Source: Nakamurella aerolata (lineage in GTDB: Bacteria > Actinomycetota > Actinomycetes > Mycobacteriales > Nakamurellaceae). Taken from it: 64,000 nucleotides of DNA. The notes beneath the pieces are model-generated. The model made no database searches and was not told where the DNA came from. It saw only the letters and a program-made list of their open reading frames with translations. Positions 10,386 to 13,081 of this stretch are shown piece by piece (position 1 is the first letter of the stretch; the number at the start of each line of letters is the position of its first letter). The position numbers and the translations under genes are program-made. The stretch is from NCBI RefSeq assembly GCF_013002705.1, contig NZ_JABEND010000001.1, forward strand, positions 62,001 to 126,000. Reading direction: 5' to 3'.

Positions 10386-11312
10386 ATGTCAGCTGCACCT
10401 GCGCCGGACGGCTCGTCGCGGCCCGGCACCGCGCCCGGGTCGCTGATCGACCTGCACACCCACTCGTCGGCGTCCGACGGCACCGACAGCCCGGCCGAGC
10501 TGGTGGCCAAGGCCGCCGCCGCCGGTATCGGCACCCTGGCCGTCACCGATCACGACACCACGGTGAGCTGGGCGGCCGCCGCCGCGGCGCTGCCGGACGG
10601 CATGACGCTGATTCCCGGCACCGAGTTCTCCACCGTGGTCGCGGCACCGGAGCGGTTGGTCAGCGTGCATTTGCTCGGCTATCTTTTCGACCCGCTCGAC
10701 CCGACGATCGTCGCCGAACATCAGCGGCTGGTGGCGGAGCGGCTGAACCGCGGGCTGGCCATGGTGGACCGGATGGTGGCCGACAAGGTGCCGATCAGTC
10801 GTCAGCAGGTGCTCGACATCGCCGCCGGCGCGCCGGTCGGCCGACCCCACCTCGGGATGGCTCTGGTGCAGGCCGGGCTGGTCGGGTCGGTGACCGAAGC
10901 TTTCACAAGCTATCTGGCGTTCCGTGGGCCGTACTACGTCGCCAAGGCCGACACCGACCTGCCGGCGGCGGTGGAGATGATCGCCGCGGCCGGCGGCGTC
11001 CCGGTGTTGGCTCACCCACGCGGGCGGGGCGAGGTCAGGGTGCTCTCCAGCGACTACATCGGCTCGCTGGTCGACCGCGGGCTGGCCGGCCTTGAGATCG
11101 ACCATCCCGACCACGATGCCGCGGCCCGCGCCGAGCTGGCCGAGATCGCCGATCGGTTCGCGCTGATCGGCACCGGCAGCTCCGACTACCACGGCCACAA
11201 CAAGACTCTCCGCTTGGCGCAGGAACACACCGCACCGGAAGCGTTGGCGCAGTTGGTTTCTCGCGGGTCGGGGTCGTTGCCGGTGGTCGGTGCGAGCGTG
11301 GGAAGCAGCTGA
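10386..11312 (+). CDS. PHP-domain phosphoesterase
   Basis: A 308-aa protein of the polymerase and histidinol phosphatase superfamily. Metal-ligand motifs are DLHTHSSASDGTDSP (residues ~21-35), AVTDHDTT, IPGTEFST, LAHPRGRGEV and a C-terminal GSSDYHGHN. This layout fits the YciV/RNase AM and nucleoside 3',5'-bisphosphate phosphatase group, which acts on short RNA or phosphorylated nucleotides. Its TGA overlaps the ATG of the next gene, so the two are translationally coupled. The exact substrate is not predictable. Confidence 0.85.
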   Translation: MSAAPAPDGSSRPGTAPGSLIDLHTHSSASDGTDSPAELVAKAAAAGIGTLAVTDHDTTVSWAAAAAALPDGMTLIPGTEFSTVVAAPERLVSVHLLGYLFDPLDPTIVAEHQRLVAERLNRGLAMVDRMVADKVPISRQQVLDIAAGAPVGRPHLGMALVQAGLVGSVTEAFTSYLAFRGPYYVAKADTDLPAAVEMIAAAGGVPVLAHPRGRGEVRVLSSDYIGSLVDRGLAGLEIDHPDHDAAARAELAEIADRFALIGTGSSDYHGHNKTLRLAQEHTAPEALAQLVSRGSGSLPVVGASVGSS

Positions 11313-11755
11313 TGCCAGGTACCGCGCCGCTGCCGCGCGTGCCCGAGCCCGAGCGGCCCCGCCCGGGCGACCATCCGGACGCCCCGACGCACCGCATCGC
11401 CCCGGCGCCGGCCGCGCGCGGATCAAGGACGGCAGCGGCGCCGCCGGCACCGTCGGGGCAGCAGGCTCGCGTGCCGCGGCCGCTGCGGATTCTCGAGGGA
11501 GTGTCCGGCCTGCTCGGCGCCGGGCTGCTGTTGCTCGGGGTGCTGCTGTTGGTGGCGCAGCTGCTGGCGCCGCGCCTGGTGGATGCCGCGGACGGCCCGC
11601 GCTGGTGGGTGGTCGGGCTGCATCTTGGGGTGGGCATCGCGGCCGAGGCGCTGCGCGGGCTGCGCCGTCGGTGCCCGGTCGGCATCCGATACCTGTTGGC
11701 CTGCTTGACGATCACCGCTGTAGCCGTGGTGCTGGTCGTCACCTGGTGGCGGTGA
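11312..11755 (+). CDS. Small membrane protein of unknown function
   Basis: 147 aa starting in the stop codon of the PHP gene. The first ~60 residues are Pro/Arg/Ala-rich and probably cytoplasmic. Three hydrophobic stretches follow: LEGVSGLLGAGLLLLGVLLL, WWVVGLHLGVGIAAEAL and YLLACLTITAVAVVLVV. Arg-rich loops lie between them. No family is recognised. Its stop lies 3 bp before the -10 box of the trpS leader, so it probably shares no transcript with trpS unless read-through occurs. Confidence 0.7.
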   Translation: MPGTAPLPRVPEPERPRPGDHPDAPTHRIAPAPAARGSRTAAAPPAPSGQQARVPRPLRILEGVSGLLGAGLLLLGVLLLVAQLLAPRLVDAADGPRWWVVGLHLGVGIAAEALRGLRRRCPVGIRYLLACLTITAVAVVLVVTWWR

Positions 11756-11758
11756 CGC

Positions 11759-11764
11759 TATGCT
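11759..11764 (+). promoter_or_regulatory. -10 box TATGCT of the trpS leader transcript
   Basis: TATGCT lies 7 nt before the GTG at 11772, so the leader peptide would be read from a leaderless RNA, as for many genes in this window. Confidence 0.5.
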
Positions 11765-11771
11765 GTGCCGC

Positions 11772-11825
11772 GTGCAGCGATTCGCCGTCCAGTCTTGGTG
11801 GCCGTCCGCGACGGACGGCTCCTGA
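11772..11825 (+). CDS. Tryptophan leader peptide of the trpS attenuator (VQRFAVQSWWPSATDGS)
   Basis: A 17-residue open frame with two adjacent Trp codons (TGG TGG, 11796-11801), ending in TGA at 11823-11825. An in-frame ATG at 11760 would add four residues, but it overlaps the -10 box. The Trp pair sits immediately before the first stem of the attenuator, and the stop lies just after its second arm, as in classical trp leaders. Its role would be to report the level of charged tRNA-Trp, not to make a functional peptide. Confidence 0.75.
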   Translation: MQRFAVQSWWPSATDGS

Positions 11826-11866
11826 CCCTGCGCATTCACCCACCAGCAGCCGCCCGTCCGGGCGGC
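11801..11866 (+). promoter_or_regulatory. Tryptophan transcription attenuator upstream of trpS
   Basis: Segments 1 and 2 form a perfect hairpin, GCCGTCCG (11801-11808), CGA loop, CGGACGGC (11812-11819). Segments 3 and 4 form the terminator GCCGCCC-GTCC-GGGCGGC (11849-11866). Segment 2 extended to ACGGACGGCT (11811-11820) can pair with AGCCGCCCGT (11848-11857) at 9 of 10 positions, forming an antiterminator that consumes the left terminator arm. Ribosome stalling at the tandem Trp codons would mask segment 1 and free segment 2, allowing read-through into trpS. Confidence 0.82.
11849..11866 (+). terminator. Intrinsic terminator of the trpS attenuator
   Basis: A 7-bp perfect G+C stem, GCCGCCC/GGGCGGC, with a GTCC loop, extendable by one A-U pair. 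It is followed by TTCGCTGT, a weak U-tract of the kind usual in high-G+C actinobacteria. Confidence 0.65.
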
Positions 11867-11941
11867 TTCGCTGTGCAGATCCGAAGGTGAGCACGTTCGC
11901 GGAAGTCCCGCCCGGCGGGCCTTATCGCGAAAGCCACCACC

Positions 11942-13081
11942 GTGATCACTTCCCGCACCAGCTCCGCGCCCGATCCAGCCGCCGACCGCTCCGAGGTCGC
12001 GGCTGACCGTTGCCTGCACTCGCTGTCGCCGCAGAGCCGCGAGCTCTCCGGCATCACGCCGTCCGGCGCGCTCACCCTCGGCAACTATCTCGGGGCGCTG
12101 CGGCGTTTCACCGAGCATCAGGACGACGCGTTCTATTTCGTCGCCAATCTCCATGCGCTGACCACCGATCACCACCCGGAGCAGCTGCGCCGCGCCACGC
12201 TCTCCACGGCAGCGCTGTTCATCGCCGCCGGGCTGGATCCGGAACGAGCGACCGTCTTTCTGCAGTCGGACGTGCCGGCCCACGTCGAGTTGAGCTACCT
12301 GCTCGAGTCGACGGCGCACCTCGGCGAGCTGAGCCGGATGATCCAGTTCAAACAGAAGGGCGGCCGCCCCGGCACCCGCGCGTCGTTGTTCACCTATCCG
12401 TGCCTGATGGCCGCCGACATCCTGCTGTACGACGCCACTGACGTCCCGGTCGGCGGCGACCAGTCCCAGCATCTTGAGCTGGCCCGCGACCTGGCGATCA
12501 GGTTCAACACGCTGTACGGCAGGACGTTCGTGGTGCCGCGGCTGGCGCCGGCCGCGTTCACCACCAGGGTGCGCGACCTGGCCGACCCGACAACGAAGAT
12601 GAGCAAGTCCGCGCCGGCCGACGCGCCCGGCGTCATCCGGATGCTCGACGACCCTGACACGATTTCCCGCAAGGTGCGCCGCGCCGTCACCGACAGCGAC
12701 GGCGAGCTGCGCTACGACCCTGACGTCAAACCCGGCATCGCCAACCTTGCCGAGATCCTCGCCGCCCTCACCGCCGGGACGCCCGAGCAGGTGCTCGATT
12801 CGGTCAGCGGATACGGTGCGCTGAAACAACTCTGCACCGATGTGGTGATCGCCGAGCTGGAGCCGGTGCGCCGCAGACACCAGGAATTGTTCGCCGACCC
12901 GGCAGAGCTGCTCGGCATGCTGGCCGTTGGCGCCGCCAGGGCCAGAACGGTCGCCGACGCTGTGGTCACCAGGGCAAGGGCGGCCATCGGTGTGGTCAGC
13001 GCTGTCGGCGCGTCCGGCGTTGCCGACCCGCCGGCCGGCTACCACGCGGTGCACACGGTGAAGCGGTTGCCCCCGAGCTAG
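11942..13081 (+). CDS. trpS: Tryptophan--tRNA ligase TrpS
   Basis: A 379-aa class I aminoacyl-tRNA synthetase. The HIGH-like motif is PSGALTLGNYLG (residues ~40-51) and the KMSKS loop is intact (Lys219-Ser223 in TKMSKSAPADAPG). Additional TrpRS features are DVPVGGDQSQHLELARDLA and the TYPCLMAADILLYDA-like segment. It charges tRNA-Trp. The GTG at 11942 has only a weak GAAAG upstream. The gene follows a tryptophan attenuator. Its TAG shares the palindrome CTAG with the TAG of the convergent hydrolase gene. Confidence 0.96.
   Translation: MITSRTSSAPDPAADRSEVAADRCLHSLSPQSRELSGITPSGALTLGNYLGALRRFTEHQDDAFYFVANLHALTTDHHPEQLRRATLSTAALFIAAGLDPERATVFLQSDVPAHVELSYLLESTAHLGELSRMIQFKQKGGRPGTRASLFTYPCLMAADILLYDATDVPVGGDQSQHLELARDLAIRFNTLYGRTFVVPRLAPAAFTTRVRDLADPTTKMSKSAPADAPGVIRMLDDPDTISRKVRRAVTDSDGELRYDPDVKPGIANLAEILAALTAGTPEQVLDSVSGYGALKQLCTDVVIAELEPVRRRHQELFADPAELLGMLAVGAARARTVADAVVTRARAAIGVVSAVGASGVADPPAGYHAVHTVKRLPPS

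Follow-up and report, generated by a model that had tools for sequence, protein, structure and literature searches.

The 64-kb window (the whole stretch of DNA that was analysed, 64,000 nucleotides from Nakamurella aerolata) contains a trpS gene for a tryptophanyl-tRNA synthetase (TrpRS), which is preceded by a short leader frame with tandem Trp codons and by two hairpins (Table 1). The original prediction had described this arrangement as a complete tryptophan attenuator, and each of the elements that it named is present in the sequence at its position: the box TATGCT, the 17-codon frame from the GTG at 11772 to the TGA at 11823-11825 with its tandem Trp codons, the perfect 1:2 hairpin that begins at the last base of the second Trp codon and has a 3-nt loop, the stop codon just past arm 2, the 3:4 hairpin with a weak U-tract (TCGCTGTG 3' of arm 4), and an alternative 2:3 pairing of 9 out of 10 base pairs, which is interrupted by a single A.C mismatch and competes with 3:4. 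TATGCT and the GTG are separated by 7 nt, and the GTG lies 96 nt from the end of arm 4. An ATG at 11760, within the -10 box, is in frame with the leader and would extend the frame to 21 codons if the transcript started further upstream. Between the attenuator and trpS there is an additional short GC hairpin (11907-11925, CCCGC / GCGGG with a 3-nt loop), followed by CCTTAT.

Table 1. Features of the trpS leader region and of trpS in the window
Feature	Position	Strand	Basis
-10-like box TATGCT	11759-11764	+	sequence
Leader peptide frame VQRFAVQSWWPSATDGS, from GTG to a TGA past arm 2	11772-11825	+	sequence
Tandem Trp codons TGG TGG (putative sensing codons)	11796-11801	+	sequence
1:2 hairpin: arm 1 11801-11808, loop 11809-11811, arm 2 11812-11819	11801-11819	+	
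3:4 terminator-like hairpin: arm 3 11848-11855, loop GTCC, arm 4 11860-11867	11848-11867	+	
Predicted 2:3 antiterminator: 11810-11814 and 11816-11820 with 11854-11858 and 11848-11852	11810-11858	+	
trpS, tryptophan--tRNA ligase, 379 aa, auxiliary copy	11942-13081	+	TIGR00233 278.3 bits, cut-off 176.75

The arrangement was also searched for as a pattern consisting of TANNNT, 5-8 nt, ATG or GTG, a frame of at most 30 codons with WW near its end, and two GC-rich stems of 7 or more each. The full pattern occurred once over the two strands of the 64-kb window together and in none of 60 windows simulated with matching dinucleotide composition; when the hairpin condition was dropped, 2 occurrences were found in the simulated windows.

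The identity of the target as a tryptophanyl-tRNA synthetase gene was borne out by the TIGR00233 score, which lies above the cut-off, and a search of solved structures with the trpS product confirmed a TrpRS. Two TrpRS genes were found in the genome (E 0.001 or better), and the other copy, located on contig C17, is 47% identical to that in the window. In a tree of 84 TrpRS sequences, obtained by a quick search with SH-aLRT support only, the C17 copy groups with the copies of two genus-mates, and the neighbours of the window copy are, with support of 100, those of a Propionibacteriales MAG (L032), of another family of the same order (L003) and of a Nocardioidaceae MAG (L033). The presence of two TrpRS genes and this placement therefore indicate that the trpS gene in the window encodes an auxiliary synthetase, which would serve as a reserve for times of TrpRS inhibition or Trp shortage. 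When the first PS/PT motif was located by a loose match, it was preceded by T in the window enzyme. Among the 32 lineage members with a match (15 had none), the preceding residue was K in 23, T in 6, Q in 2 and S in 1; outside them it was Q in 36 of 37 rows. This residue presumably bears on resistance to indolmycin.

The leader arrangement is found before 47 of the 48 genes of the TrpRS lineage to which the window copy belongs, in a sample that includes the loci of the 30 best-scoring matches among 394 genomes (29 of them new) and of 20 added by score or as second copies, and that leans to high-scoring genes, so that lower-scoring members of the lineage may be missing. The 48th gene was unreadable upstream (N), and the same arrangement was found before 0 of the 36 TrpRS genes outside the lineage in the tree of 84. 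One locus, L024, whose WW frame of 34 codons has no -10 box and is attributed to chance, was excluded before counting, and 18 loci named as Firmicutes or relatives, out of 22 from one search, were left out of the tree. Among the 47 leaders, 41 contain WW and 6 a single W (GLWR); in the aligned elements the first TGG is invariant (47/47) and the second reads CGG in 6. A Trp codon occupies the same place against arm 1 in all 47 elements, and a GC-rich hairpin begins 36-63 nt past the first base of the first Trp codon, again in 47 of 47. The single-Trp leaders (L082, L085, L092, L094, L095 and L096) belong to one family and run through arm 2 like that of the window. A TrpRS with 54% identity (L034), which in the trees branches immediately outside the lineage that bears the switch, is encoded by a gene without a leader and may mark the point where the switch was gained. 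Upstream of the trpS gene of a Bacillota MAG (L035) there is GGGTGGTACCGCGG, a putative T-box motif.

The arms of the hairpins match one another within each sequence. When arms were swapped among 19 chosen sequences of the lineage, 0 of 20000 permutations were as good as the real combination for 1:2 and likewise for 3:4, and 31 of 20000 were as good for 2:3; for 2:3 the number fell to 0 of 20000 with 35 sequences of two lineages (see below). Wrong small stems entered this test for L003 and, apparently, for two members of the second lineage, L112 and L116. In a MAFFT alignment of the 47 elements (A1), 1:2 plus 3:4 had 89.8% of cells paired and a covariation of 0.089, and 0 of 500 shuffles reached either value, but the double-sided changes and the further pair types were within the range of the shuffles (141/500 and 468/500 as high, respectively), and the 2:3 pairing was weakly above it (16/500 for cells paired, 26/500 for covariation); such shuffles ignore relatedness, and kin sequences can exceed them without structure. 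In our reading of A1, the weak pair counts result partly from a register shift between members with Pro and members with Ala after WW, which the alignment missed. Co-varying stems and a conserved WW had been expected in relatives: WW recurs in 41 of the 47 leaders and the arms fit their own partners, but the pair counts were mixed and six leaders have a single W. A covariance model built from an RNAalifold structure (R1) was discarded as a poor model with 9 pairs; it put the window element at the top of its ranking for the genome (36.3 bits), and its second place (27.4 bits) lay over the end of a permease-like frame with no WW leader there.

A like switch stands before a second group of TrpRS genes. 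Nine of 16 genus-mates have a second TrpRS with 34-38% identity to the window protein, and 25 such low-identity genes were taken from the order, which lie on one side of a further tree in two deep branches. A Trp leader, a -10-like box and hairpins were found before 16 of the 25 (L108, L109, L111-L119, L122-L124, L135 and L137), eight of which are in the genus of the window; MTSEFSSHQSWWRNA and VTSASVLRTSWWLPA are examples of the leaders in that genus. Two members deviate: in L116 the box is at 9 nt, and L122 has CACGAT and WRW. In the arm-swap test with this lineage, the permutations as good as the real combination numbered 0 for 1:2, 60 for 2:3 and 0 for 3:4, out of 20000 each. In the ninth gene from a genus-mate (L110), the hairpins and TGG TGG are kept and an in-frame TAG lies directly before the Trp codons.

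The 109-nt leader RNA of the window folds better than 200 of 200 dinucleotide shuffles (z -4.67). However, the best structure of the finished RNA pairs arm 1 with arm 4 around a nested 2:3 pairing and is not 1:2 plus 3:4, so that the terminator is not formed in it. The folding check thus bore out a structured leader, more stable than every shuffle, but not the terminated form as the preferred fold of the finished molecule. The local energies are -18.3 kcal/mol for 1:2, which includes an added G.U and two further pairs, -17.2 kcal/mol for 3:4, and -19.4 kcal/mol for 2:3, the last with everything up to 11808 masked to mimic a ribosome on the first Trp codon. When the ribosome was represented in this way as a mask on the RNA, its position decided the fold. 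In 47 of 47 elements of the lineage, a ribosome placed at the first Trp codon before the synthesis of arm 4 left 67-100% of arm 3 paired upstream, and a ribosome placed at the stop codon left 90-100% of arm 3 paired with arm 4. The corresponding values for the second lineage were 54-100% and 78-100%. In these models, 1:2, 2:3 and 3:4 are mutually exclusive and the outcome is set by the position of the ribosome. Once arm 4 was included while the ribosome stayed at the Trp codon, 3:4 won in 44 of 47 elements, the exceptions being L004, L083 and the window element, in which 2:3 still won. Most members would therefore have to make the choice while arm 4 is being transcribed. Likewise, since the finished RNA of the window prefers 1:4 plus 2:3, termination would have to be decided during RNA synthesis, and, as modelled, must be set there by early formation of 1:2 or by a ribosome over arm 2.

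The anatomy, its conservation with matching stems, its tie to one TrpRS lineage and the outcome of the masked folds make it very likely that a ribosome-mediated transcription attenuator governs the auxiliary trpS gene by the supply of charged Trp-tRNA; our confidence is high, if slightly reduced by the best fold of the finished RNA, and the weak U-tract also counts against the mechanism. The complete attenuator of the original prediction is in this respect supported by sequence, masked folding and comparison. We infer the start site, the termination, the order of folding and the response to tryptophan in the following scheme. RNA polymerase would start at or next to the GTG of the leader, and a ribosome would load on the 5' end of the RNA without a Shine-Dalgarno sequence. 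When Trp-tRNA is plentiful, the ribosome would reach the stop codon past arm 2 and cover this arm, 3:4 would form, and transcription would end. When Trp-tRNA is scarce, the ribosome would stall on UGG UGG and cover arm 1, the 2:3 pairing would form, and trpS would be transcribed. If the leader is not translated, 1:2 would form first as the RNA emerges, leaving 3:4 free.

Translation of the leader peptide from the 5' end of the RNA, or from next to it, is supported by the spacing of the promoter-like box. In 40 of the 47 elements an in-frame leader start follows TANNNT at a distance of 5-8 nt, compared with on average 0.83 and at most 4 in 100 rounds of dinucleotide shuffles, which argues for leaderless translation; six of the 7 elements without TANNNT at this distance have, as judged by eye, CANNNT 6-7 nt before the start. 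Alternatively, the leader could be carried on a read-through RNA from the upstream gene, with the ribosome re-starting at the ATG at 11760 to make a peptide of 21 codons, so that the attenuator would not be leaderless. This ATG indeed shares the reading frame of the leader and is found 4 nt past the stop codon (11753-11755) of a 147-aa frame (11312-11755), but it is embedded in the TATGCT whose TANNNT form recurs at 5-8 nt in those 40 elements; furthermore, the flanks of five genus-mates are without trpS, and coupling to that neighbour would therefore be recent. We consider such re-initiation improbable. Still less credit can be given to the view that the hairpins are a mere terminator at the start of the gene, limiting trpS or ending transcription from upstream, and that the WW frame arose by chance: the hairpins are strong by themselves, as this would require, yet chance does not account for a Trp codon at the same place against arm 1 in every one of the 47 elements, for arms that match within each sequence, or for a pattern that was absent from all 60 simulated windows. 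Finally, although T-boxes govern most synthetase genes of Firmicutes according to PMC1262725, control of trpS by such a tRNA-sensing element, or by a riboswitch, is hardly conceivable here, as no Rfam family, T-box included, reached its gathering score anywhere in the 64-kb window and the GTG and the end of arm 4 span 96 nt. The proposed attenuator does not appear to be shared with Trp biosynthesis, a candidate that was rejected: the 500 nt upstream of trpE (L103, a stronger match to the trpE family than L104) contain a WW frame, but no such frame there is preceded by a -10 box.

The neighbourhood of the gene suggests how the attenuator and trpS came to this place. The upstream PHP-domain gene was found in 16 of 16 genus-mates searched and the downstream hydrolase gene within the locus in 6 of the 16, the other ten loci not showing it within 1.5 kb and so having no bearing on the empty site. 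In five genus-mates that were measured, the stop-to-stop gap between the flanking genes is 346-736 nt, compared with 1766 nt in the window, and the window TrpRS, used as a query, had no match in any of the 16 genus-mate loci. The extra length in the window corresponds to the module that extends from the -10 box through trpS and begins 4 nt past the stop codon of the small upstream frame; the GC content is alike (69.2% vs 70.2%). Since the flanking genes adjoin without trpS in five genus-mates, the simplest reading of these sequences is that the switch and the gene were probably gained together. Alternatively, the trpS module may have been lost in the relatives. It may also be, and this we advance only tentatively, that the attenuator and the spare synthetase form a mobile cassette that is inserted as a unit, and that the switch reached two distant TrpRS lineages by transfer or convergence. 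If so, the switch would be a general means of keeping a reserve synthetase silent until charging fails. Plasmid-borne trpS genes of Corynebacterium glyciniphilum (pCgly1) and Tsukamurella tyrosinosolvens (plasmid 25), which form the L105/L106 pair, and a Nonomuraea record were considered and rejected; they group with the housekeeping copies, and a Trp leader was not found before the two plasmid trpS genes (L105, L106) or in the Nonomuraea record.

The logic of the proposed switch is familiar. The attenuator of the E. coli trp operon shares with the window element the tandem Trp codons, the four segments and the alternation of 1:2, 2:3 and 3:4; it differs in its ribosome-binding site, in its strong U-tract and in acting on biosynthesis. 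The subject of a 2010 study by Vecchione and Sello was reportedly trpRS1 of S. coelicolor. By its title, as quoted in PMC4787780, that study concerns ribosome-mediated transcriptional attenuation of an auxiliary, antibiotic-resistant TrpRS gene, and to the extent of the title it is thus like the system proposed here. According to two reviews, Streptomyces or the producers of indolmycin have a second TrpRS that is resistant to this antibiotic. In PMC1262725, Seliverstov and others predicted attenuators in front of trpS2 of S. avermitilis as well as in front of the trp operons of Corynebacterium and Streptomyces. These candidates are like ours in the leader with repeated UGG, the alternative hairpins, the GC-rich terminator and the inclusion of trpS among the targets; unlike ours, the terminators of the trp operons have poly-U tracts, the word leaderless does not occur in the text examined, and the window genome's own trpE is without such a leader, in contrast to the trp operons treated there.

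The closest precedent is trpL2 of S. lividans TK24, which an RNA-seq study describes as a leaderless frame with one Trp codon before trpS, with two hairpins and with no uridine-enriched sequence found downstream (PMC8079986). The window element resembles it in the Trp leader before trpS, here putatively leaderless, and in two hairpins without a strong U-tract, and differs in having two Trp codons instead of one, in the remainder of the peptide and in the organism; in addition, its leader has 17 codons and stops past arm 2, whereas leaders like TrpL2 stop in the 1:2 loop. TrpL2 of S. lividans (MMTRTCTQLWRAA) is nearly equal to VMTRTCTQLWWAA, the leader of one member of the window's lineage, and from the likeness of their leaders to TrpL2 we infer that family f33 of the lineage is Streptomyces. 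In the tree of 84, the window trpS thus stands inside the TrpRS lineage that carries these leaders in Streptomyces-like genomes. The novelty of trpS as a target, which the original prediction had implied by setting it against biosynthetic operons, does not hold, as Trp attenuators before trpS of Streptomyces are already on record, including the leaderless one of S. lividans. Given the precedents in S. lividans and S. avermitilis, the target, the leaderless leader and the mechanism are known in kind. As far as the literature was searched, what is new here is the organism, the wide link between the switch and one TrpRS lineage, the probable acquisition of the module as a whole, and a second lineage that bears a like switch; some of this may already be contained in the study of Trp attenuators in Actinobacteria that Korolev and others published in 2015 and that is cited in PMC4833913. 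Our results suggest that a Trp attenuator is a regular companion of an auxiliary TrpRS lineage in several actinobacterial families. They make testable both the reason for a silent second synthetase, namely TrpRS inhibitors or Trp shortage, and attenuation from leaderless RNAs, in which the start site and the point of ribosome loading would be no more than a few bases apart.
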